The position numbers and the translations under genes were made by a program. Below the pieces are notes generated by a model that was not told the origin of the DNA, did no database searches, and saw only the letters and a list, made by a program, of their open reading frames with translations. A stretch of 64,000 nucleotides of DNA from Pseudothauera lacus (GTDB lineage Bacteria; Pseudomonadota; Gammaproteobacteria; Burkholderiales; Rhodocyclaceae), in assembly GCF_003034845.1 (NCBI RefSeq), contig NZ_PZKC01000013.1, positions 1 through 64,000 on the forward strand. Direction: 5' to 3'. This document shows, in pieces, positions 37,971-53,168 of this stretch; position 1 is the first letter of the stretch, and every line of letters begins with the position of its first letter.

Positions 37971-38360
37971 TCAGATACGGCGCTTCTTCGGCGGACGGCA
38001 GCCGTTGTGCGGGATCGGGGTGATGTCGGTAATGCTGGAGATCTTCATCCCGAGCGCATTGAGAGCACGCACTGCGGACTCACGGCCGGGGCCGGGTCCC
38101 TTGATACGCACTTCGAGGTTCTTCACGCCGCATTCCTGCGCGGCCTTGCCGGCAGCCTCGGCCGCCACCTGGGCAGCGAACGGGGTGCTCTTGCGCGAAC
38201 CCTTGAAGCCGGCACCACCGGAGGTCGCCCACGACAGGGCGTTGCCCTGGCGGTCGGTGATGGTGATGATGGTGTTGTTGAAGCTCGCGTGAACGTGCGC
38301 AATACCTTCCGCGACGTTCTTCTTGACCTTCTTACGAACCTTTGCAGCAGTCTTAGCCAT
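37971..38360 (-). CDS. rpsK: 30S ribosomal protein S11 (uS11)
   Basis: The 129-residue protein lies on the 30S platform next to the mRNA exit. Core motifs are [19 protein letters not shown] and the C-terminal [19 protein letters not shown] conserved Asn-Gly (HNG) near the C-terminus is the position that becomes isoaspartate in E. coli S11. It lies 14 bp before rpsD. Confidence 0.97.
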
Positions 38361-38372
38361 TATCAGTTCCTA

Positions 38373-38735
38373 TCACTTCTTGCCGGCGATGGCCTTGCGC
38401 GGACCCTTGCGGGTGCGGGCATTGGTACGGGTGCGCTGACCGCGCATCGGCAGGCCGCGGCGATGACGCACACCGCGGTAGCAACCCAGGTCCATCAGGC
38501 GCTTGATGTTCATCGTGACTTCACGACGCAGATCGCCTTCGACAACGAAGCGGCCGACTTCGTCGCGCAGCTTCTCCATGTCGGAATCGGTCAGATCCTT
38601 GATCTTGGTCGAACGAGCAACACCAGCGGCGTCGCAAATCTTCTGAGCACGCGTACGGCCGATCCCATAGATGCTGGTCAGCGCGATCTCGGCATGCTTG
38701 TGGTTGGGAATGTTTACCCCAGCAATACGGGCCAT
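38373..38735 (-). CDS. rpsM: 30S ribosomal protein S13 (uS13)
   Basis: The 120-residue protein of the 30S head contacts the P-site tRNA and bridges to the 50S subunit. The start [26 protein letters not shown] and the basic C-terminal tail [23 protein letters not shown] are typical. It is the first gene of the alpha operon, with a promoter overlapping the end of rpmJ. Confidence 0.97.
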
Positions 38736-38763
38736 CCGATTACCCCAAAAAGCGAAACATTAA

Positions 38764-38792
38764 ATTTTAATACCCGGGATTGACTAGATCAA
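38764..38792 (-). promoter_or_regulatory. Promoter of the alpha operon (rpsM)
   Basis: TTGATC (38787-38792) and TAAAAT (38764-38769) on the minus strand are 17 bp apart. The -35 box overlaps the rpmJ stop codon. The predicted start near 38757 leaves a leader of only about 20 nt before rpsM, too short for the E. coli S4-binding pseudoknot. Confidence 0.55.
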
Positions 38793-38902
38793 CCCTGGCG
38801 CTGCTTGTGACGCGGATCGGTGCAGATCACGCGGACCACGCCCTTGCGTCGAATGATCTTGCAGTTGCGGCACAGCCGCTTGACCGAAGCCTGGACTCTC
38901 AT
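38789..38902 (-). CDS. rpmJ: 50S ribosomal protein L36 (bL36)
   Basis: This 37-residue gene reads [20 protein letters not shown] and continues to end in HKQRQG. Cys11, Cys14, Cys27 and His32 form the zinc site, so it is the zinc-containing form, unlike the paralogue expressed under zinc starvation in many bacteria. It lies 22 bp after infA and is the last gene of the spc operon. Confidence 0.95.
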
Positions 38903-38924
38903 GTTCTTGCTCCTGTTTCTATAA

Positions 38925-39143
38925 TCACTTGGTCCGGAACACGATCCGGCCCTTGGTCAGGTCATACGGCGTCAGTTGCACGGTGACCTTGTCGCCCGGA
39001 AGGATGCGGATGTAGTGCATGCGCATCTTGCCGGAGATGTGTCCGAGGACCATGTGCCCGTTTTCGAGCCTGACGCGGAACGTCGCGTTGGGGAGGTTCT
39101 CGGTCACCTCGCCCTGCATCTCGATTACATCTTCCTTCGCCAT
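38925..39143 (-). CDS. infA: Translation initiation factor IF-1
   Basis: The 72-residue OB-fold protein ([20 protein letters not shown]) occupies the ribosomal A site during initiation. Its place between secY and rpmJ is the usual betaproteobacterial one; in E. coli infA is elsewhere. It lies 3 bp after secY. Confidence 0.97.
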
Positions 39144-39146
39144 CGC

Positions 39147-40472
39147 TTACCTGAGCGGAAGACCCGCACCCTTGAAGTTGGCTTTCTTCAGCAGGCTTTC
39201 GTACTGATGGGACATCACGTAAGACTGCACCTGCACCATGAAGTCCATGGTCACCACGACGATGATCAGCAGCGAGGTTCCACCGAAATAGAACGGCACG
39301 TTCCACTTCAGGATCAGGAACTCCGGCAGCAGACACACCAGCGTGATGTACACCGCCCCGGCCAGCGTCAGCCTGGTGAGGATGCGGTCGATGTAACGTG
39401 CAGTCTGATCACCGGGCCGGATACCCGGCACGAACGCCCCACTCTTCTTCAGGTTGTCCGCGGTATCGCGGGCGTTGAACACCAGTGCGGTGTAGAAGAA
39501 GCAGAAGAACACGATCGCTGCAGCGTACAGCATCACGTAGATCGGTTGCCCCGGCGACAGCGTCGAGGCGATGTCACGCAGCCAGTACATGCCTTCCGAA
39601 GCACCGAACCACTGCCCCAGCGTCGCCGGGAAGAGGATGATGCTCGACGCGAAGATCGGCGGGATGACGCCCGACATGTTGAGCTTCAGCGGCAGGTGCG
39701 AAGCCTGACCACCGTACACCTTGTTGCCCACCTGACGCTTGGCGTAATTGACCAGGATCTTGCGCTGACCCCGCTCGACGAACACCACGAACGCAGTCAC
39801 CAGCACCACCAGCACGCAGATGAACAGGGCCGTAAAGGGATGCATCGCACCGGTACGGACCAGCTCGAACAGACCGCCGATGGCACTCGGCAGACCCGCC
39901 ACGATACCGGCGAAGATGATCAGCGAGATGCCGTTGCCGATACCGCGCTCGGTGATCTGCTCGCCCAGCCACATCAGGAACATGGTCCCGGTGACGAGGG
40001 TGGCGACGGTCACGAAGCGGAACATCAGGCCGGGATCGAGCACCAGACCGGGCTGTCCTTCCAGCGCGATGGCCATCCCCAGCGACTGCGCAAAGGCAAG
40101 CAGGAGCGTGCCGTAGCGGGTGTACTGGGTGATCTTGCGGCGACCGGCTTCACCTTCCTTCTTCAGTTGCTCGAGCGCAGGCACCGCCACCGTCATCAGC
40201 TGCATGATGATCGATGCCGAGATGTACGGCATGATCCCCAGCGCGAAGATGGTGAAACGCGACAGCGCACCGCCCGAGAACAGGTTGAAGACCCCGAGGA
40301 TGCCGCCGGCCTGCGACTGGAACAGTTCGGCGAGGCGCTCGGGATCGATTCCGGGCACGGGAATGTGCGCGCCGATGCGGTAGACGATCAGCGCTCCCAG
40401 CAGGAACAGGATGCGCCGCTTGAGGTCACCGAAGCGACCGGCGTTTCCCACGGTGGCGGACGGATTGGCCAC
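39147..40472 (-). CDS. secY: Protein translocase subunit SecY
   Basis: The 441-residue protein is the channel of the Sec translocon, with ten predicted membrane helices. Landmarks are IPVPGIDP in the first periplasmic plug region, [14 protein letters not shown] and the cytoplasmic loop [17 protein letters not shown] that contacts SecA and ribosomes. The start codon is GTG with an AGGGGAAGG ribosome binding site. It is translated in the spc operon just after rplO. Confidence 0.97.
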
Positions 40473-40486
40473 TGCCTTCCCCTGCC

Positions 40487-40927
40487 TTACTCGGCAACCG
40501 CGACGGAACCGCCGGCGGCCTCGATGGCAGCCTTGGCACCCTTGGTCGCGCCCACGCCACGCAGGTTCACCTTGCGGGTGATCTTGCCGGAGAGGATGAC
40601 CTTGGCGGACAGCGCATCAGCGGCGACGATACCGGCCTGCATGAGGACCAGCAGATCGACGTCATCGACGGGCAGCTTGTCGAGTTCGGACAGACGCACT
40701 TCGGCGTTGCGGGCACGGGTCAGGGACACGAAGCCACGCTTCGGCAGACGGCGCTGCAGCGGCATCTGACCGCCTTCGAAACCGGTCTTGTGGAAGCCGC
40801 CGGAGCGGGACTTCTGGCCCTTGTGGCCGCGACCGCAGGTCTTGCCCAGGCCGCTGCCGATGCCACGACCGACGCGCTTGGCCGGCGACTTGGAGCCGGC
40901 ACCGGGTTTAATGTCATTCAGCCGCAT
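40487..40927 (-). CDS. rplO: 50S ribosomal protein L15 (uL15)
   Basis: The 146-residue late-assembly protein has the Gly/Lys/Arg-rich N-terminal extension ([25 protein letters not shown]) that penetrates the 23S rRNA core. The globular C-terminal domain follows. Its ATG is directly adjacent to the rpmD stop codon (no intervening base). Confidence 0.97.
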
Positions 40928-41110
40928 TTAAGCCTCGCACTTCACCAGGTAGGACACCTTGTTGATCATGCCGCGCACTTCGGGCGTGTCCTGCAGTTCG
41001 ACGGTGTGATTCAGTCGACGCAGGCCCAGGCCGCGAACCGTGGCGCGATGGGACTGTTTGGTACCGATCACGCTCTTCACCAGCGTGACCTTGAGTTTCT
41101 TGTCGGACAT
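40928..41110 (-). CDS. rpmD: 50S ribosomal protein L30 (uL30)
   Basis: The 60-residue protein ([21 protein letters not shown]) is the short bacterial L30 with the conserved GLRRLN...[11 protein letters not shown] core. Zero and three bases separate it from rplO and rpsE, so the three genes are tightly coupled. Confidence 0.96.
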
Positions 41111-41113
41111 CGC

Positions 41114-41638
41114 TTACCCCAGGATCTCTTCGACAGTCTTGCCACGCTTGGCGGCGATCACTGCCGGGGTGTTGACGGCCAGCAGGCCGTTGATGGTCGC
41201 ACGCACGACGTTGTACGGATTGGTCGAACCGATGCACTTGCAGATGATGTCGGTCACGCCCATCACCTCGAACACCGCGCGCATCGGGCCGCCGGCGATG
41301 ATGCCGGTACCGCCGGGGGCGGGCTGCATCAGCACTTCGGCCGCGCCGTGCTTGCCGATCACGGTGTGCTGCAGGGTGCCGTCGCGCAGCGGGATCTTGA
41401 CCAGCTTGCGGCGGGCCTCGTCCATCGCCTTCTGCACGGCCACCGGCACTTCACGGGACTTGCCCTTGCCCATGCCGATGCCGCCGTCGCCATCACCGAC
41501 CACGGTCAGCGCGGCAAAGCCGAGGATACGACCACCCTTCACAACCTTGGTCACGCGATTGATCGCGACCATCTTCTCGCGCAGGCCGTCGTCGCGCTCC
41601 TCGGAGGCCTGCGGGCGTTTGGTTTGCTGCTTAGCCAT
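41114..41638 (-). CDS. rpsE: 30S ribosomal protein S5 (uS5)
   Basis: The 174-residue protein helps form the mRNA entry site and decoding accuracy centre. The N-terminal dsRBD-like domain includes the [21 protein letters not shown] loop, which is the spectinomycin contact region; the conserved Lys-Gly-Gly is unaltered. The S5 C-terminal domain with [16 protein letters not shown] follows. Confidence 0.97.
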
Positions 41639-41650
41639 TCGAATCCTCGC

Positions 41651-42004
41651 TTAGAACTTCAGACCGCCTTCACGGGCAGCCTCGGCCAGCGCCTTCACGC
41701 GACCGTGATACAGGAAGCCCGAGCGGTCGAACGCGACCTGCTCGATCCCGGCAGCCTTGGCGCGTTCGGCAATCAGCTTGCCGACCACTTCCGCTGCCTG
41801 CTTGTTGCCGCCGTTCGGCACCTGGGCACGCACTTCGGCTTCCACGGTGGAAGCGGCAGCGAGCACGCGGGAGCCGCAGCCCGAGATGATCTGGGCGTAG
41901 ATGTGGCTGTTGGAACGGAACACGGCCAGGCGCACCGCCTTCAGCTCCGCAATCTTGGCGCGGGTTTTACGCGCACGGCGAAGACGAACTTGTTTTTTGT
42001 CCAT
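41651..42004 (-). CDS. rplR: 50S ribosomal protein L18 (uL18)
   Basis: The 117-residue 5S rRNA-binding protein has the basic N-terminus ([17 protein letters not shown]) and the C-terminal signature [26 protein letters not shown]. Together with L5 it anchors 5S rRNA in the central protuberance. Confidence 0.97.
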
Positions 42005-42016
42005 GACGAACCGCCC

Positions 42017-42550
42017 TTACTTCTTCTTGGTTTCCTTGAGCACCACCACTTCGTCCGAATAACGGACGCCCTTGCCCTTGTAGGGTTCGGGAGCGCGGTA
42101 GGCCCGCACCTCGGCCGCGACCTGGCCGACCTGCTGCTTGTCGACGCCCTTGATCACGATCTCGGTCTGCGAGGGGGTTTCAACGGTCACGCCGGCGGGC
42201 ATCTGGTGCGCCACGGGGTGGGAGAAACCCAGCGAGAGATTCAGCTTGTCGCCCTGAGCCTGGGCACGGTAGCCGACGCCTACCAGGGTCAGCTTGCGCT
42301 CGAAACCCTTGGACACGCCGGTAACCATGTTGGCCAGCAGGGCACGCATGGTGCCGGACATCGCGCGGGCGTTTTCCACCCCCTCACGTGCCTTGCACAC
42401 CAGCGCGTCACCTTCGCGCTCGACGCTGACAGCAGCGTGAGCCGGGCGGCTGAGCGTACCCAGCGGACCCTTGACGGTGATTTGTGCTGCGTTGATGGTG
42501 ACCTCGACGCCCTGCGGGATGGCCACCGGATTCTTAGCTACACGAGACAT
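42017..42550 (-). CDS. rplF: 50S ribosomal protein L6 (uL6)
   Basis: The 177-residue protein has two similar beta-rich domains and lies near the sarcin-ricin loop and factor-binding site. The C-terminal signature [14 protein letters not shown] is present. It lies between rpsH and rplR, as expected in the spc operon. Confidence 0.97.
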
Positions 42551-42559
42551 GGCACCCCC

Positions 42560-42955
42560 TTAAGCGACGACGCAGATCACTTCGCCACCGACGCGACTGG
42601 CGCGTGCGGCACGATCGGTCATCACACCCTTGGGCGTGGACACAATGGCCACACCCAGTCCATTCATGACGCGCGGCAGATCGTCACTACCCTTGTACAC
42701 ACGCAGGCCGGGACGGCTGACGCGTTCGATGCGTTCGATGACCGGGCGACCGGCGTAGTACTTGAGCGCGACGTCGAGCTGCGCCTTGCCGTCGCTGTCG
42801 CGCACGGAAAAGTCGTCGATGTAACCCTCGTCCTTGAGCACACGGGCAATCGCCACCTTGAGCTTGGAGGACGGCATGCTCACCGCGGGCTTCTGGGCCT
42901 GCTGGGCATTGCGGATGCGGGTCAGCATATCGGCGATGGGATCGGACATACTCAT
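42560..42955 (-). CDS. rpsH: 30S ribosomal protein S8 (uS8)
   Basis: The 131-residue protein binds helix 21 of 16S rRNA. The start [18 protein letters not shown] and the C-terminal signature [26 protein letters not shown] are typical. In E. coli S8 represses the spc operon at the rplX-rplE junction; I could not verify such a site here. Confidence 0.97.
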
Positions 42956-42969
42956 CTTTTGATCTCTCC

Positions 42970-43275
42970 TTACCAGCTCGCCTTGGTCATGCCAGGCACT
43001 TCGCCGCGGAAGGCAATTTCACGCAGCTTGTTGCGGCACAGGCCGAACTTGCGATACACACCACGCGGACGGCCGGTGAGGCTGCAGCGGTTGCGGGTAC
43101 GCGTAGGATTGGCGTTGCGGGGCAGCTGCTGCAGTTGCAGACGGGCGGCCATGCGCTCTTCCTCGGACAACTTGGAATCGTTGATCTGGGCGACCAGAGC
43201 GGCGCGCTTGGCAGCGAACTTCGCCACCAGCTTGCGGCGCTTCTCTTCGCGGTTGATCAGAGCCAGTTTTGCCAT
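42970..43275 (-). CDS. rpsN: 30S ribosomal protein S14 (uS14)
   Basis: The 101-residue form ([24 protein letters not shown]) is the longer, zinc-independent type: the CxxC pairs of the short form are absent. The C-terminal signature [24 protein letters not shown] is clear. The ATG at 43275 was chosen; the open frame upstream belongs to the rplE overlap region and is not coding. Confidence 0.96.
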
Positions 43276-43282
43276 ATCACCC

Positions 43283-43822
43283 TCAATTCTTGAACGGGAA
43301 CTTGAACGCGGCCAGCAGCGCACGCGCTTCCTGGTCGGTCTTCGCCGTCGTCGTGATGCTGATGTTCATCCCGCGCAGCGCATCGATCTTGTCGTACTCG
43401 ATTTCCGGGAAGATGATCTGTTCCTTGACGCCGAGGTTGTAGTTGCCACGACCGTCGAAACCCTTCGCGGCAATACCGCGGAAGTCACGCACGCGCGGCA
43501 GCGCCACGGTTACCAGGCGATCGAAGAACTCGTACATTTGCGGACCACGCAGGGTCACCATGCAGCCGATCGGATAGCCATCACGGATCTTGAAGCCGGC
43601 GATGGACTTGCGCGCCTTGGTGGCAACCGGCTTCTGGCCGGCGATCTTGGTCATGTCGCCAATGGCGTTTTCCAGGATCTTCTTGTCACCGACCGCCTCG
43701 CCAACACCCATGTTGAGGGTGATCTTGGTGATGCGCGGCACTTCCATGACGGACTTGTAACCGAACTGCTTGAGCAACTCAGGCACGACCGTCTCTTTGT
43801 AGAACTCTTGCAAGCGAGCCAT
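43283..43822 (-). CDS. rplE: 50S ribosomal protein L5 (uL5)
   Basis: The 179-residue protein binds 5S rRNA in the central protuberance and touches P-site tRNA. Motifs include [34 protein letters not shown] and the C-terminal [13 protein letters not shown]. It is followed after 7 bp by rpsN. Confidence 0.97.
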
Positions 43823-43831
43823 TGTTACTCC

Positions 43832-44149
43832 TTACGCGTCCACGAGCTCGCCGTTCGACTTGAAGAAGCGCGCCTTGCGGCCATCTTCAAGCACCTTGAT
43901 CCCGACGCGATCGCCCTTCTGGGCCGCGGGATTGAACAGCGCGACGTTCGAAACATGGATGGGCATCTCCTTCTCGACGATGCCACCCACCTCACCCTTC
44001 ATCGGATTCGGACGGACATGCTTCTTCACGCGATTGACGCCTTCAACGACCACACGCTCGTCATCCACGCGACGCAGCACGGTACCGCGACGACCGCGAT
44101 CCTTGCCGGCCAGCACGACCACTTCATCACCCTTGCGGATCTTGTTCAT
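43832..44149 (-). CDS. rplX: 50S ribosomal protein L24 (uL24)
   Basis: The 105-residue assembly initiator has the KOW motif ([21 protein letters not shown]) at its N-terminus and the signature [14 protein letters not shown]. It lies at the mouth of the exit tunnel. Confidence 0.97.
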
Positions 44150-44161
44150 CTCGTCGACTCC

Positions 44162-44530
44162 TCAGAGCACTTCCGGCGCCAGCGAGACGATCTTCATGAA
44201 CCGCTCGGTGCGCAGCTCGCGAGTAACCGGCCCGAAGATACGGGTGCCGATCGGCTCGAGCTTGTTGTTCAGCAGAACGGCGGCATTGCCGTCGAACTTG
44301 ATCAGGGAACCATCGGGGCGGCGCACACCCTTGGCGGTGCGGACCACCACGGCGTTATAGACGTCACCCTTCTTGACCCGCCCACGCGGAGCAGCATCCT
44401 TCACGGTGACCTTGATGATGTCGCCCACGCCGGCGTAGCGGCGCTTCGAACCACCGAGGACCTTGATGCACATCACCGAACGCGCACCGGTGTTGTCGGC
44501 GACGTCCAGCCTGGATTGCATTTGAATCAT
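44162..44530 (-). CDS. rplN: 50S ribosomal protein L14 (uL14)
   Basis: The 122-residue beta-barrel protein forms an inter-subunit bridge and is the target of the RsfS anti-association factor. The N-terminal [28 protein letters not shown] is invariant in the family. It is the first gene of the spc operon, with a promoter inside the inverted repeat upstream and a TTGGAG ribosome binding site. Confidence 0.97.
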
Positions 44531-44620
44531 GAGTTAAATCTCCAACTTATCCCGCGCTGCGGTCAGTCTTGGAACCCGTACGGGTAGAAGCCCCGGACGA
44601 GATCCGGAGCAAAGACGAAA

Positions 44621-44649
44621 AGTATAACAGCTTGGCAAGAGCTTGCCAA
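44621..44649 (-). promoter_or_regulatory. Promoter of the spc operon (rplN)
   Basis: On the minus strand TTGGCA (44644-44649, 5 of 6) and TATACT (44621-44626, 5 of 6) are 17 bp apart. The -35 box and spacer lie within a perfect 14-bp inverted repeat, so the same DNA can form a transcript hairpin at the end of the S10 operon. The predicted start near 44614 gives a leader of about 84 nt. Confidence 0.6.
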
Positions 44650-44655
44650 GCTGTT
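44626..44655 (-). terminator. Inverted repeat between rpsQ and rplN
   Basis: Fourteen bases at 44626-44639 pair perfectly with 44642-44655. On the minus strand the hairpin is followed by ATACTTTTCGTCTTT, a moderate T-rich tail. It lies 20 bp past the rpsQ stop codon, at the S10/spc operon border. Confidence 0.6.
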
Positions 44656-44674
44656 CATACCAAAACATCAAAGC

Positions 44675-44944
44675 TCAGATGACGCGCGCCTTTTCCAGAA
44701 CTCGCGTGACCTTCCAGGTCTTGGTGCGGGAGATCGGACGGCACTCCTCGATCTCCACCAGATCACCCGCCGCCGCACCACCGTCTTCGACGTGGGCGTG
44801 GTACTTGGCCGAACGGGTGATGATCTTGCCGTACAGCGGGTGCTTCACACGACGCTCCACCAGGACGGTGACCGTCTTCTGCATCTTGTCGCTCACCACA
44901 CGGCCAACGACCGCACGGCGAACCTTTGCGCTTTCTTCACTCAT
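44675..44944 (-). CDS. rpsQ: 30S ribosomal protein S17 (uS17)
   Basis: The 89-residue OB-fold protein binds helix 11 of 16S rRNA. The core [32 protein letters not shown] is canonical. Its ATG overlaps the rpmC stop codon by four bases (ATGA). It is last in the S10 operon. Confidence 0.97.
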
Positions 44945-45135
44945 TGCTGACCTGCCTTTTCACGCAGAACGGTCCGCACGCGCGCGATGTCGCGACGCAC
45001 CTTCCCGAGTTGGCTCGTATTGCTCAGCTGCTGGGTTGCCAGTTGCATGCGCAGCGAAAACTGCGCCTTCAGCAGCTCGAGCAATTCCTGATTCAATTCA
45101 CCTGCGCTCTTGGCGCGGAGATCACTCGCATTCAT
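44941..45135 (-). CDS. rpmC: 50S ribosomal protein L29 (uL29)
   Basis: The 64-residue two-helix protein ([22 protein letters not shown]) sits at the exit tunnel next to L23. It is translated three bases after rplP and overlaps rpsQ. Confidence 0.97.
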
Positions 45136-45138
45136 GCC

Positions 45139-45552
45139 TTACCCCACTTGGCGCGTAACGAACACGGTATCGATCGGAAGCTTGGCGGCGGCGAGCCGGA
45201 AAGCTTCACGGGCGAGCGCTTCGTCCACACCGTCCATTTCGTACAGCACCTTGCCGGGCTGGATCTCAGCAACCCAGTACTCGGGGTTGCCCTTGCCGTT
45301 ACCCATACGGACTTCGGCAGGCTTCCTGGAGATCGGCTTGTCCGGGAAGACGCGGATCCAGATGCGACCGCCACGCTTGATGTGACGGGTCATCGCACGA
45401 CGCGCAGATTCGATCTGGCGGGCAGTCAGGCGCCCACGGCCGGTGGCCTTCAGGCCCCATTCACCGAAGCTGACCTTCGCACCGCGAGTGGCCAGACCGG
45501 TGTTGCGACCTTTCTGCTCCTTACGATACTTCCTTCTCGTCGGCTGCAGCAT
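45139..45552 (-). CDS. rplP: 50S ribosomal protein L16 (uL16)
   Basis: The 137-residue late-assembly protein ([19 protein letters not shown]) contacts A-site tRNA. Of two adjacent ATG codons I chose the second, at 45552, since the AGGAG ribosome binding site is then 6 bp away and the N-terminus matches the family. The rpsC stop codon is interleaved between them. Confidence 0.96.
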
Positions 45553-46325
45553 CATTCACTCCTGCTTTCTTCTTGACGGCCGGCGCCATCACGACGGCCG
45601 CCACGACGCGCCGGACGGCCCTCGTCGTTGCGCGGCGCGCCACGACGACCGCGGCGGTTGTCTGCTTCCGGCTCGGCGGCCACGGGCTGCTCGTTGCGAC
45701 CGAGCTGGTCACCCTTGTAGACCCACACCTTGATGCCGATGATGCCGTAGGTGGTCTTGGCTTCGGAGACGCCGTAGTCGATGTTGGCGCGCAGGGTGTG
45801 CAGCGGCACACGGCCTTCGCGATACCACTCGGTACGGGCGATCTCGGCGCCGTTGAGGCGGCCTGCGCTCATGATCTTGATGCCCTGGGCACCGAGGCGC
45901 ATGGCGTTCTGCATCGCACGCTTCATCGCACGGCGGAACATGATGCGCTTCTCGAGCTGCTGGGCGATCGAATCGGCGATCAGCTTGGCATCGATCTCGG
46001 GCTTGCGGACTTCCTCGATGTTCACATGCACGGGCACGCCGACGATCTTCTGCAGCTCGCGCTTGAGCAGCTCGATGTCCTCGCCCTTCTTGCCGATCAC
46101 CACACCCGGGCGGGCGCTGTACAGGGTGATGCGGGCATTCTTGGCCGGACGCTCGATGACCACACGGCCAACGGAGGCGTGCGCCAGGCGCTTCTTGAGG
46201 AAATCACGGACCTTCAGGTCTTCCGCAAGCATGCGCGAGAAATCGCGCTTCGGCGCAAACCAGCGGGAACCCCAGTCACGCGTGACCGCGAGGCGGAATC
46301 CGGTCGGATGAATTTTCTGACCCAT
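45552..46325 (-). CDS. rpsC: 30S ribosomal protein S3 (uS3)
   Basis: The 257-residue protein lines the mRNA entry tunnel and has helicase activity. The KH domain (about 40-105, with [17 protein letters not shown]) and the C-terminal domain are normal. The last 40 residues form an Arg/Gly-rich tail ([15 protein letters not shown]...) absent in the 233-residue E. coli protein. Confidence 0.97.
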
Positions 46326-46334
46326 ACTTACTCC

Positions 46335-46664
46335 TTATTCCCCGACGGTCACGTAGACGTGACAAGTAGGCTTGAGGATGCGGTTGCCGCGGCCCTTGGC
46401 GCGCGCGGTGAAGCGCTTCAGCGACATGCCTTCCTCGACGTAGATGGTCTTCACCTTGAGGGTGTCGATGTCGGCACCGTCGTTGTGCTCGGCATTGGCG
46501 ATCGCGGACTCGACCACCTTGCGGATGATCTTGGCACCGCGCTTCGGCGAGAAGGCGAGAATGTTGAGCGCCTGATCAACCGGCTTGCCCCGGACGAGAT
46601 CGGCGACCAGACGGCCCTTTTGGGCCGACAGGCGAACCCCGCGGAGAATGGCTCTGGTTTCCAT
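46335..46664 (-). CDS. rplV: 50S ribosomal protein L22 (uL22)
   Basis: The 109-residue protein spans the large subunit and its beta-hairpin ([23 protein letters not shown]) narrows the exit tunnel. The loop is of normal length, with none of the known macrolide-resistance deletions apparent. Confidence 0.97.
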
Positions 46665-46673
46665 AGTGACTCC

Positions 46674-46949
46674 TTACCTCTTCGCCTTCTTGCTGGCGGC
46701 GTGACCCTTGAAGGTGCGGGTCAGCGCGAATTCGCCGAGCTTGTGGCCAACCATGTTCTCCGAGACGAAGACCGGGATGTGCAGGCGGCCGTTATGCACC
46801 GCGATCGTCAGGCCGACGAAGTCGGGCAGGATCGTGGAACGGCGCGACCAGGTCTTGATCGGGCGCTTGTCGTTGCTGTTGCGTACGGCGTCCACCTTCT
46901 TCAGCAGGTGCGCGTCGACGAACGGGCCTTTCTTGATAGAACGAGACAT
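46674..46949 (-). CDS. rpsS: 30S ribosomal protein S19 (uS19)
   Basis: The 91-residue 30S head protein begins [19 protein letters not shown] and contains the signature [17 protein letters not shown]. It forms a complex with S13 and lies 9 bp before rplV. Confidence 0.97.
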
Positions 46950-46959
46950 CTCTTACCCC

Positions 46960-47787
46960 TTAACGCTTGTGCCGACGCTGCACGATCATGGAATCGCTGC
47001 GCTTGTTGCGGCGCGTGCGATAGCCCTTGGCGGGCTGACCCCACGGGCTGCGCGGCACGCCGCCTTCGCCGGTACGGCCTTCGCCGCCACCGTGCGGGTG
47101 ATCGACCGGGTTCATCGCCACGCCGCGAACGGTCGGGCGGATGCCACGCCAGCGATTGGCGCCGGCCTTGCCGATCTTGCGCAGGCCATGCTCGCCGTTG
47201 CCGACTTCGCCGATGGTGGCGCGGCACTCGACATGCACGCGGCGGATTTCACCGGAGCGCAGACGCAGCTGGGCGTACAGGCCTTCGCGGGCCAGCAGCT
47301 GCACGGAAGTGCCGGCAGCGCGGGCGAGCTGGGCACCCTTGCCGGGCAGCATCTCGACGCAGTGAATGGTCGAACCCACCGGGATGTTGCGGATCGGCAG
47401 GGCGTTGCCGGCCTTGATCGGCGCCTCGGAACCGGAGACGACCTGCTGGCCGACTTCCAGACCCTTGGGGGCGATGATGTAGCGGCGCTCACCGTCGGCA
47501 TAGCACAGCAGGGCGATATGCGCGGAACGGTTGGGGTCGTACTCGATGCGCTCGACCTTGGCGACGATGCCGTCCTTGTTGCGACGGAAATCGACCAGGC
47601 GGTAGTGCTGCTTGTGACCACCACCCTGGTGACGCACGGTGATGCGACCGGAATTGTTACGGCCGGCATTCTTGCTCTGGCTTTCCACCAGGCCAGCGTA
47701 CGGACGACCCTTGTAGAGGGTGTCGTTCACCACCTTGACCATGGCGCGACGGCCAGCGGAGGTGGGCTTCAGTTTAACCAGTGCCAT
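46960..47787 (-). CDS. rplB: 50S ribosomal protein L2 (uL2)
   Basis: The 275-residue protein is needed for subunit association and peptidyl transfer. The signature [17 protein letters not shown] contains the functionally important His near the end. The basic tail [22 protein letters not shown] is typical. It follows rplW by 6 bp. Confidence 0.97.
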
Positions 47788-47793
47788 GACTTA

Positions 47794-48099
47794 TCACTCC
47801 CCAGCCACAAAGTTGATTTCCTGGCCGGGCTTGAGGCAGACGAAAGCCTTCTTCCAGTCCTTGCGGCGGCCCATCATCTTGCCGAAACGCTTGACCTTGC
47901 CCTTCACGTTCAGGATCTGCACCGACTTGACCTCGACCTTGAAGAGTGCCTCGACGGCAGCCTTCACTTCGGGCTTGGTTGCATCGGAGGCGACCTTGAA
48001 CACCACCTGCTCGTTCTTGTCGGCGACGAAAGTCGCCTTTTCGGAGATCTGCGGGGCGAGCAGCACCTGCAGCAGACGCTCCTGGCTGATTGCGCTCAT
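47794..48099 (-). CDS. rplW: 50S ribosomal protein L23 (uL23)
   Basis: The 101-residue exit-tunnel protein is the docking site for trigger factor and SRP; the docking Glu is kept (E20 in [10 protein letters not shown]). The ATG at 48099 overlaps the rplD stop codon (ATGA) and was preferred to a GTG two codons earlier. Confidence 0.96.
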
Positions 48100-48716
48100 T
48101 GCCACGCTTCCTCCATCTTGGCCAGCGCAGCCTTGGTGACCAGCACCTTGGCGAAACGCACCAGCGACACGGGATCGGCTTCCTGGACTTCCAGCACCAG
48201 CACGTCGTGCAGGTTGCGGGCCGACAGGAAGAGGTTCTCGTCGAGCTCGTCAGTGATGACCAGCACGGAATCCAGCCCCATGCCCTTGAGCTTCTGGGTC
48301 AGCAGCTTGGTCTTCGGCGCCTCGACGCTGAAGTTCTCGACGACCGCCAGACGGTCTTCGCGAGCCAGCTGCGAGAGGATCGACGCCACGCCGGCGCGAT
48401 ACATCTTGCGATTGACCTTCTGCGAGAAGTTCTCGTCAGGGGAGTTCGGGAAAATGCGACCACCCCCACGCCACAGCGGGCTGGAAGCCATACCGGCGCG
48501 CGCACGCCCGGTGCCTTTCTGGCGCCACGGCTTGCGGGTCGACTTGGCCACGTCGGAACGGCCCTTCTGGGCACGGTTGCCGGAACGGGCATTGGCCATG
48601 TAGGCGGTGACCACCTGGTGCACCAGCGCCTCGTTGTAGTCACGCCCGAACAGGACATCGGATGCCTGCAGCGTGGCCGAGGGCTGACCCTGGTCATTCA
48701 GTAGTTTCAGTTCCAT
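48096..48716 (-). CDS. rplD: 50S ribosomal protein L4 (uL4)
   Basis: The 206-residue protein has a globular domain and the long loop [25 protein letters not shown] that reaches the exit tunnel. In E. coli L4 also represses its own operon through the S10 leader; the 54-bp tuf-rpsJ gap here cannot hold that leader. Confidence 0.97.
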
Positions 48717-48727
48717 TACGCCCTCGC

Positions 48728-49372
48728 TCAGTTACCGGCCTTGACCGCCGGGCGGACGATCACGTCGCCACCCTTGGAGCCCGGCACCGCACCCTTGACC
48801 AGCAGCAGCTGACGCTCGGCATCGACGCGAACCACTTCGAGGTTCTGCGTGGTGCGCGTGACGTTGCCGTACTGACCCGCCATCCGCTTGCCAGGGAAAA
48901 CCCGGCCCGGATCCTGCGCCATGCCGATGGAGCCCGGCGCGTTGTGCGAGATCGAGTTACCGTGCGAAGCGCGGTTGGAGCTGAAGTTGTGACGCTTGAT
49001 GGAGCCGCTGAAGCCCTTGCCGATCGAGGTACCGGTGATATCCACCTTCTGCCCGACCGCAAAGAGGTCGACACCGATCACGTCGCCGGCCTTGAGGCTG
49101 GCAAGCTGAGCGGCTTCGACGCGGAATTCCTTGAGCACGTGACCGGCTTCGACGCCGGCCTTGGCGAGATGACCGGCGAGCGGCTTACTGACGCGGCTCG
49201 CACGGCGCTTGCCGAAAGTCACCTGAACGGCGGAATAACCATCCACCTCAGATGTCTTGATCTGGGTCACGCGATTGTTGGACACGTCCAGCACCGTCAC
49301 CGGGATGGAACGACCATCCTCGGCAAAGACGCGAGTCATGCCAACCTTGCGACCTACAAGGCCTAGACTCAT
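48728..49372 (-). CDS. rplC: 50S ribosomal protein L3 (uL3)
   Basis: The 214-residue protein reaches the peptidyl-transferase centre. The loop [32 protein letters not shown] contains Gln153, equivalent to the Gln methylated by PrmB in E. coli. The ATG at 49372 follows an AGGAG ribosome binding site; the open frame further upstream lies in the leader. Confidence 0.97.
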
Positions 49373-49436
49373 TTTCTTCTCCTGATCCCCGGTTACGATT
49401 GACCGGGCCCTAACGAACAATTGCACCAATAGGCGC

Positions 49437-49460
49437 AAAGGCCGGATTATACCGGCCTTT
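49437..49460 (-). terminator. Hairpin between rpsJ and rplC with TATAAT in its loop
   Basis: Nine bases (49437-49445) pair perfectly with 49452-49460 around a 6-nt loop that reads TATAAT on the minus strand. The T-run is inside the stem (CCGGCCTTT) and is followed by GCGCC, so termination would be partial. Confidence 0.55.
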
Positions 49461-49475
49461 TCCTTGATCCCGCAA
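49446..49475 (-). promoter_or_regulatory. Promoter candidate before rplC
   Basis: The perfect TATAAT (49446-49451) lies 18 bp after TTGCGG (49470-49475; three matches). The predicted start near 49439 gives a leader of about 67 nt before rplC. The -10 box is the loop of the hairpin at 49437-49460. Confidence 0.45.
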
Positions 49476-49484
49476 GTATGGTAC

Positions 49485-49796
49485 TTACTGGAGCTTGATT
49501 TCGACGTCCACGCCAGCCGGCAGATCCAGCTTCATCAGCGCATCCACGGTCTTGTCAGTGGGATCGATGATGTCCATCAGACGTTGATGGGTGCGGATTT
49601 CCATCTGGTCGCGCGAGGCCTTGTTGACGTGCGGCGAACGCAGCAGGTCGAAACGCTCGATGCGGGTCGGCAGCGGCACGGGACCGCGCACCACCGCGCC
49701 GGTGCGCTTGGCGGTGTCGACGATTTCGAGCGCGGACTGATCGATCAGGCGATAGTCGAAGGCCTTCAGGCGGATGCGGATTTTCTGGCTTTGCAT
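49485..49796 (-). CDS. rpsJ: 30S ribosomal protein S10 (uS10)
   Basis: The 103-residue protein ([22 protein letters not shown]) is also the transcription factor NusE that binds NusB at boxA. The loop [22 protein letters not shown] is conserved. It lies 54 bp after tuf and 112 bp before rplC, so it is set apart from the rest of the S10 operon on both sides by hairpins. Confidence 0.97.
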
Positions 49797-49817
49797 GGCT
49801 TGTTTTCCAAAGAGCGA

Positions 49818-49840
49818 GGGCGCGGCACGATGCCGCGCCC
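49818..49840 (-). terminator. Hairpin between tuf and rpsJ
   Basis: A perfect 10-bp stem (49818-49827 with 49831-49840) closes a 3-nt loop, 10 bp before the tuf stop side ends. The tail on the minus strand is TCGCTCTTTGG, so it may act as a partial terminator or a 3'-end stabiliser of tuf mRNA. Confidence 0.55.
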
Positions 49841-49850
49841 GGACAGGGAA

Positions 49851-51041
49851 TTACTCGATGATCTTGGCAACCACACCGGCGCCGACGGTACGACCGCCTT
49901 CGCGGATGGCGAAACGCAGACCTTCTTCCATGGCGATCGGGCAGATCAGCTTCACGGTGATCGACACGTTGTCACCCGGCATGACCATCTCGGTGCCTTC
50001 CGGCAGGGAGATCGAACCGGTCACGTCGGTGGTACGGAAGTAGAACTGCGGACGGTAGTTGTTGAAGAACGGGGTGTGACGACCGCCCTCTTCCTTCGAC
50101 AGCACGTAGATCTCGCCGGTGAAGTGGGTGTGCGGGGTGATGGAACCCGGCTTGCACAGCACCTGGCCACGCTCGACGTCTTCACGCTTGGTGCCGCGCA
50201 GCAGCACGCCGACGTTGTCGCCCGCCTGACCCTGGTCGAGCAGCTTGCGGAACATTTCCACGCCGGTGCAGGTGGTCTTGACCGTGGCCTTGATGCCGAC
50301 AATCTCGATTTCCTCACCAACCTTGACGATGCCGCGCTCGACACGGCCGGTCACCACGGTGCCGCGGCCGGAGATCGAGAACACGTCTTCGATCGGCAGC
50401 AGGAAGGGCTTGTCGATGGCACGTTCCGGGGTCGGGATGTAGGAGTCCAGCGCAGCGGCCAGCTCCAGGATCGCCGGTTCGCCGATCGGCGACTGGTCGC
50501 CTTCGAGCGCCTTCAGCGCGGAACCCTTGACGATGGGAATGTCGTCGCCCGGGAAGTCGTACTTGGAGAGCAGCTCGCGCACTTCCATCTCGACCAGCTC
50601 GAGCAGCTCTTCGTCGTCAACCATGTCGCACTTGTTCAGGAAGACGATGATGTAGGGCACGCCGACCTGGCGGGCCAGCAGGATGTGCTCGCGGGTCTGC
50701 GGCATCGGGCCGTCAGCGGCCGAGCACACCAGGATCGCGCCGTCCATCTGCGCCGCACCGGTAATCATGTTCTTCACGTAGTCGGCGTGACCCGGGCAGT
50801 CCACGTGGGCGTAGTGACGGGTTTCGGTCTCGTACTCGACGTGCGCGGTGTTGATGGTGATGCCGCGCGCCTTCTCTTCGGGCGCCGCGTCGATCTGGTC
50901 GTAGGCCTTCGCTTCACCGCCGAACTTCTTCGACAGAATGGTGGTGATCGCCGCGGTCAGCGTCGTCTTACCATGGTCAACGTGGCCGATCGTGCCAACG
51001 TTTACGTGCGGCTTGGTGCGCTCGAATTTACCTTTAGCCAT
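49851..51041 (-). CDS. tuf: Translation elongation factor Tu
   Basis: This GTPase delivers aminoacyl-tRNA to the ribosome. The 396-residue product has G1 GHVDHGKT (19-26), the effector region [14 protein letters not shown]3 DCPGHADY and G4 NKCD. It is the downstream copy in the str operon. A second tuf gene, usual in betaproteobacteria, may lie beyond the right edge near secE-nusG, but this is inference. Confidence 0.98.
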
Positions 51042-51068
51042 GAGTATGTTCCTTGTCGATGCAGGTGC

Positions 51069-53168
<2,100 letters not shown>

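Follow-up and report, generated by a model that had tools for sequence, protein, structure and literature searches.

A terminator-like hairpin of the S10 operon fused with the spc promoter, and an S8-site-like rplN leader downstream, in Pseudothauera lacus and its relatives

The junction between the S10 and spc operons of the betaproteobacterium Pseudothauera lacus raises the question of whether one stretch of DNA can both end an operon and begin its neighbor. The window, by which we mean the whole 64,000-nucleotide stretch analyzed, carries on its minus strand the S10 and spc operons in the order rpsJ (S10), rpmC, rpsQ, a gap, rplN, rplX, rplE and, further on, rpsH, with Pseudothauera rhizosphaerae as the first named match for rplN (98%). 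The gap extends over 144 nt, from the rpsQ stop at 44675 to the rplN ATG at 44530 (Table 1). A sequence-only reading of this gap had proposed that a single element ends or attenuates S10 transcription and starts the spc operon. Our analysis suggests that the S10 operon is likely to end within the same 40 bp that carry the spc promoter, with a separate, probable S8-type leader device downstream.

Table 1. Features of the S10-spc junction and neighboring genes, in window coordinates.
Feature	Position	Strand	Basis
rpsQ (S17), final S10-operon gene	44675..44944	-	Pfam Ribosomal_S17, E 3.5e-31
Left arm of inverted repeat/terminator-like stem, AACAGCTTGGCAAG; includes the -35 box	44655-44642	-	sequence
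-35 box TTGGCA of the spc promoter	44649-44644	-	consensus match
Right arm, CTTGCCAAGCTGTT; within the promoter spacer, last base common with the -10 box	44639-44626	-	sequence
-10 box TATACT, extended (TG upstream)	44626-44621	-	consensus match
Terminator U-tract UUAUACUUUU, overlapping the -10 box and discriminator	44618..44627	-	row conservation; d 14.8
Expected spc mRNA start	44613..44616	-	inferred from -10 position
First leader hairpin of the spc mRNA	44590..44610	-	predicted fold
S8-site-like hairpin, CCAA[GA]CUG...UAAGUUGG	44542..44572	-	alignment, pattern counts, folds, models
rplN Shine-Dalgarno UUGGAG, partly within the S8-like hairpin	44540..44545	-	sequence; 9 nt before ATG
rplN (L14), first spc-operon gene	44162..44530	-	Pfam Ribosomal_L14, E 2.3e-54
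rplE (L5); start without the 5' strand of an E. coli-type S8 core	43283..43822	-	Pfam; leader-core scan
rpsH (S8), presumed repressor	42560..42955	-	Pfam Ribosomal_S8, E 6.9e-50; translation

The sequence-only reading described an inverted repeat that holds TTGGCA and the whole 17-bp spacer of the promoter, and this is accurate; the -10 box does not merely follow the right arm, as had been stated, because its first T is the last base of that arm. The arms, AACAGCTTGGCAAG and CTTGCCAAGCTGTT, are separated by a 2-nt centre. The promoter, TTGGCA-17-TATACT, matches the sigma70 consensus at 10 of 12 positions, with a spacer inside the 16-18 bp range and a TG one base before the -10 box, and in the predicted fold the RNA stem can be extended by pairing of an upstream GUAU with AUAC of the -10 box. 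No other perfect inverted repeat of 14 bp with its arms 0-8 nt apart occurs in the 64-kb window, and of the four promoter-like sites scoring at least 10 on the matrix, the spc site has the most stable overlapping hairpin (-19.9 kcal/mol versus -9.9 kcal/mol for the next). A 49-nt stretch folds with -24.7 kcal/mol, compared with -9.3 +/- 2.6 kcal/mol for shuffled versions (z -6.0; 0 of 200 shuffles equal it), giving the stem-loop expected of an intrinsic terminator. Therefore, the coincidence of repeat and promoter is not a product of chance. Plain consensus scans across 6 kb found one promoter where 1.1 were expected and four terminators where 5.0 were expected; as these counts match expectation they carry no weight alone, and the case rests on the relatives. 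The U-tract of the window, UUAUACUUUU, is interrupted, with a terminator d score of 14.8.

Other identities for the element were also considered. A dispersed palindromic repeat was rejected, the only other match in the same genome (E at or below 0.001) being the same palindrome on the opposite strand. A sigma54 promoter, suggested by the resemblance of TTGGCA...TTGC to -24/-12 elements, was likewise rejected on inspection by eye against the consensus, with the GG-GC spacing one base short and the TTGC lost in many relatives. A search of window positions 38000-52000 against Rfam returned no family covering either the hairpin or the spc leader at E values up to 1. Separately, the bases after the -10 box are T-rich (TTTCGTCTTT, 44611-44620, minus strand), as opposed to the GC-rich stretch found at that place in E. 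coli, and a U-tract after the spc -10 box may limit stringent control at this promoter.

For comparison, gaps were drawn from 80 named loci (the best 80 of 566), 30 relatives (loci for 30 of 54 places), further family members (30 loci from at least 220 matching genomes, plus 60 stretches picked by hand), and members of the class, for which we took the best 30 of 102 matching genomes, those most like the window, together with E. coli. Taxonomic order was inferred for the named loci and known for the remaining genomes. After 22 loci were left out (19 without an rpsQ match and three with gaps shorter than 20 nt), 202 gaps were usable, of which the 176 measuring 100-320 nt entered the hairpin counts (20 were shorter and six longer). 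Totals given for 171 Burkholderiales-type gaps exclude E. coli and four other-order genomes; one locus from an other-order genome (L198) is counted among the 171. The relatives are not independent and the set is rich in Rhodocyclaceae. Terminator d scores follow the formula of d'Aubenton Carafa, here combined with ViennaRNA energies, and the wide hairpin test compared each gap with 12 shuffles that keep both promoter hexamers.

Across the 176 gaps, the best hairpin near the promoter averaged -15.8 kcal/mol versus -8.0 kcal/mol in shuffles, and 159 gaps beat their own shuffle mean. The sequence-only reading had named loss of the repeat with retention of the promoter in close relatives as one observation that would count against it. 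No such case occurs among the six genomes of the genus; farther off, 17 of the 176 gaps do not beat their shuffle mean although a promoter is called, two of them from other orders. When the gap is aligned across relatives, arms and promoter are found side by side in all six of these genomes and in 42 loci sharing the window's geometry, which a pattern demanding much of both arms selected, and the other arm positions vary in a compensatory manner. A hairpin with d>0 lies near the promoter in 82 of the 171 Burkholderiales-type gaps (at most 0.01 in shuffles), comprising 39 of 42 in the window's class (shuffles 0.00), 16 of 29 in the loop classes, 6 of 9 Chromobacteriaceae-like gaps and 21 of the remaining 91, and in two of the five formed by E. 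coli and the four other-order genomes. The placement of the hairpin falls largely into two registers, as it ends at -1 or 0 relative to the -10 box in 44 of the 82, and at +10 to +14 in 32. In an Azonexus metagenome-assembled genome (L023), for example, the hairpin GAAGCCGG-TATAAT-CCGGCUUC carries a TATAAT -10 box in its loop and has six U after it, a form common to several family members; in others the -10 box lies within the right arm. A d>0 hairpin also overlaps the called -35 box in three of four other-order genomes with a long gap, so such overlap extends beyond Burkholderiales, and not all Burkholderiales show it.

Several loci in the set deserve separate mention. Six (L047, L066, L070, L072, L077 and L081) have rpsQ-rplN gaps of 694-963 nt, and in the two inspected (L066, 556-1179; L081, 825-1361) the gap holds an ORF resembling a peroxiredoxin, as named by eye. 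The locus L198 (genome G373, contig C217) is a second rplN contig in an other-order genome and carries a Burkholderiales-type leader, which probably reflects contamination.

A detailed examination of the same-geometry loci enabled us to ask in which molecule the repeat is conserved. These 42 loci were chosen by a pattern demanding much of both arms; 40 of them were analyzed (two had one extra base), giving 31 distinct rows with that of the window included. In these rows 97.8% of 372 stem cells are paired, compared with 91.4% in shuffles, two-sided changes occupy 25 stem cells compared with 9.2, and stem covariation reaches 0.284 compared with 0.159, none of 500 shuffles attaining the observed value in any of the three measures. 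Sliding the partner by one to three columns lowers pairing to 22.8-45.4%. The TTGG of the -35 box is invariant, as the selecting pattern demands, and TTGGC is fixed in all 31 rows, with its partners in the spacer varying almost solely by G.U; the mismatches opposite the -35 box comprise one at a C-G pair and four at the pair of its sixth base. The -10 box reads T31 A31 T30 A29 N T31, the first two positions again being demanded by the pattern, and is followed by T in 30, 30 and 23 of the 31 rows at the next three positions, after which the sequence drifts.

A perfect 14-bp inverted repeat spanning the -35 box and spacer is the classic layout of an operator, and the palindrome might therefore be read as the DNA site of a dimeric regulator that covers the promoter, with no RNA hairpin involved. 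The pattern of change makes this very improbable. Departures from Watson-Crick pairing over 13 pairs amount to 38 G.U cells (nine at the outermost pair) as against three A.C cells and six other mismatches, and among 24 distinct closed loops 11 are GNRA, UNCG or CUUG tetraloops when read in the sense strand, compared with one in the antisense strand (column-permutation p = 5e-5). Such strand asymmetry is unexpected of a DNA operator and expected of a transcribed hairpin with a U-run; moreover, relatives carry unrelated sequences in other registers. By the comparative evidence, then, what is conserved and covaries is a hairpin in the sense-strand RNA of the upstream transcript.

These observations enable us to propose a model for the junction. 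Transcripts arriving from rpsQ would carry both arms and fold into a 13-14 bp hairpin followed by UUAUACUUUU, leading to termination or attenuation over the -10 region, while sigma70 polymerase would use TTGGCA-17-TATACT in the same DNA to initiate near 44614, downstream of the hairpin. Because the spc transcript would start after the hairpin or inside its right arm, it should by geometry be unable to form the terminator, and the same stretch could therefore stop S10 yet start spc without stopping spc. Polymerases crossing or halted on the element may block the spc promoter, which is the competition envisaged in the sequence-only reading. The terminator of the window's class may be weak, since its U-tract is interrupted by the -10 box. 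With stop and start signals fused, and with an S8-like hairpin just after them, the junction probably sets the amount of the spc operon that is made. The dual role put forward in the sequence-only reading is thus favored in part, by comparison, through the joint conservation of hairpin and promoter, the compensating arms and the terminator d score.

Two other accounts of the hairpin bear on this model. It could be non-terminating, acting as a 3' stabilizer or processing signal on S10-spc cotranscripts or as an elongation pause. Stable hairpins also protect RNA ends, the Chromobacteriaceae-like hairpins are without a clear U-run, and 64 of the 171 gaps are without any d>0 hairpin; on the other side, in the window's class the T-run after the -10 box is retained and the base beyond it varies, and six U follow the stem in other classes, which leaves this account unlikely. 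Alternatively, two compact signals may simply have been squeezed into a short gap, their fusion serving no other purpose. Such a view is compatible with the shared element that we favor and denies the coupling alone, and we regard it as having an even chance of being right. The -35 box starts at a median of 20 nt past the rpsQ stop (quartiles 8 and 29, n = 171), as lack of room would lead one to expect, yet gaps could lengthen, and in none of the 171 Burkholderiales-type gaps does the best d>0 hairpin stand as a separate one wholly upstream of the -35 box. When scoring covers the entire gap, the top d>0 hairpin instead overlaps the promoter in 73 and lies after the start site in 34. A stronger form of coupling is conceivable, in which the polymerase, having ended the S10 transcript, remains bound at the spc promoter, recruits sigma70 and begins again in cis, so that spc initiation would track S10 transcription, with S8 trimming output at the rplN leader, but we consider such a relay improbable.

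Set against known systems, the fused element looks like a new way of joining two familiar parts, the intrinsic terminator and the sigma70 promoter, and the comparative data support its dual reading well. In E. coli, rpsQ is followed by an intrinsic terminator (d 38.3), the spc promoter and then rplN, an arrangement to which the putative terminator and promoter of the window correspond. However, the E. coli hairpin ends 7 nt before the -35 box called by the matrix (TACCCA, a weak call), whereas in the window hairpin, U-tract, -35 and -10 have bases in common; furthermore, the E. coli rplN leader is without the S8-like motif. In the overlap of the E. coli frd terminator with the ampC promoter, too, neighboring operons share signals; there the terminator acts past the start site, attenuating ampC, whereas the window hairpin lies on or across the promoter core. 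For the relay, the pertinent precedent is polymerase recycling. Polymerase retained after termination is described as reinitiating in vitro in PMC6978380 and PMC6978322, and the latter proposes that a sense promoter near a terminator could couple operons. The retained polymerase of PMC6978322 can restart nearby, as the relay would require; however, the same account has restart usually in the reverse, antisense direction, whereas the relay needs a sense start at spc.

The second part of the junction is a hairpin that lies about 40 nt into the predicted spc mRNA and overlaps the rplN Shine-Dalgarno. Of 182 gaps measuring 100 nt or more, 177 contain its core motif (a presence count, as the pattern requires the core), the five without it being E. 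coli and the four other-order genomes. In a pattern-free alignment of 48 leaders the equivalents of A642, C643, A595, A596 and G597 are invariant and that of U644 is conserved in at least 90% (one leader, L022, ends there); the A and C of CCAAnACUG and AAGUUGG are likewise invariant, and the U of ACU is kept in at least 90%. The outer helix is formed by CCAA and UUGG, and the inner hairpin brackets 146 of 149 distinct inner segments, compared with 48.5 from shuffles. In the treatment of S8 binding given in PMC4176348, the site in helix 21 of 16S rRNA comprises A595-(A596-U644), (G597-C643)-U641 and an invariant A642, and the E. coli spc operator contains A80-(A81-U11). The window leader reads AGACUG/UAAGUU, and the E. 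coli S8 operator reads AAACUG (+7 of rplE) and CAAGUC (+79) in the same strand order. Helix 21 of the 16S rRNA reads UAAG and GACUG in all 14 readable 16S genes, from 14 genomes of the order with that of the window included (of 16 further genomes queried, two gave no 16S gene and one was masked). Residue 641 is G in these 16S genes and G, A or U in the leaders, where it does not follow the 16S of the same genome.

The leader resembles the E. coli operator at rplE, as set out in PMC4176348 and PMC10931766, in the core A[N]ACUG/nAAGU, the strand order, the operon concerned and the control of translation to be expected, and differs from it in its position before rplN, which opens the operon, where it overlies the Shine-Dalgarno. 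None of 129 Burkholderiales-type loci has at rplE the 5' strand of an E. coli-type core, which is present in E. coli itself; the AAGT string of its 3' strand occurs at rplE in 103 of the 129, and both strands in 4 of 28 other-order loci, E. coli included. It is probable that the leader hairpin represents a relocated S8 operator, and we have good reason to expect, from these correspondences, that S8 binds it. Since the 3' strand of the hairpin runs into the Shine-Dalgarno, S8 binding should hide this site; judging by sequence, strand order and position, excess S8 would bind the hairpin and block translation of the spc operon from its first gene. In 160 of the 177 leaders, 8-13 nt separate the UUGG from the start codon. 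The distance is 14-21 nt in Chromobacteriaceae-like leaders, where the start codon sits behind another purine run, and occlusion of the Shine-Dalgarno may therefore differ there. As to the presumed repressor, rpsH reads VSTPKGVMT, and thus differs at the third residue from the S107-T108-S109 that PMC4176348 describes in its account of the protein.

With rplN the first gene, the hairpin could instead be the target of a different ribosomal protein, L14 or L24 for instance, and bear a mere likeness to the S8 site. The match of AGACUG/UAAGUU to the operator AAACUG/CAAGUC in the same strand order, and the occurrence of UAAG and GACUG in helix 21 of the same organisms, render this rather improbable. 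Covariation within the leader is slight, with RNAalifold returning seven pairs and a covariation term of just -0.15, and in the MAFFT alignment a +1 slide has 13 two-sided changes versus 11 for the S8-like structure, inner-helix covariation being weak.

A leader model run on the window's own genome placed the rplN leader at E 8e-7 and the next match at 9.5 (150 of 1319 candidates scored). A covariance-model scan of 200 genomes of the phylum matched the own genome alone, and is unusable as a negative owing to its insensitivity, as it missed two genomes (G043 and G379) in which the leader adjoins rplN. The exact pattern occurs in 98 of 150 genomes of the order, compared with about 34 of 150 for a reversed-pattern control; leaders with a longer inner segment or a different spelling escape it, and some of its matches, such as that in G040, are not at rplN. 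Among 114 genomes of the class it occurs in 26, about equal to the control, and the class matches located at rplN are just two same-order genomes and one contig of G373 that is probably contamination.

Further regulatory elements lie in or near these leaders. In four loci (L007, L008, L012 and L022) a second terminator-like hairpin (d 17-29) sits downstream of the start site, in the interior of the S8-like leader, and might serve there as an attenuator. Elsewhere in the window, before the alpha operon, a match to Alpha_RBS at 38703-38773 (minus strand) falls below the gathering score (33.9 bits versus 38; E 1e-4), and a promoter-like site is present at 38769 on the same strand.

Searches of open-licence PMC papers listed no title or abstract opening that described either the junction or an S8-like rplN leader. 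If the proposed reading of the junction is true, it would provide a natural, conserved site at which to test the restart of a terminated polymerase on the neighboring promoter, a possibility that PMC6978322 raises in its account of recycling. The S8-like leader may prove the more useful result of the two. According to section 2.6 of a 2024 review (PMC10931766), how spc is regulated in B. subtilis or elsewhere is not known, and its phylogeny has not advanced. If the leader acts as we propose, it would account for spc autoregulation in this order, and would represent a ribosomal protein operator that has moved from the third gene of its operon to the first with its core kept.
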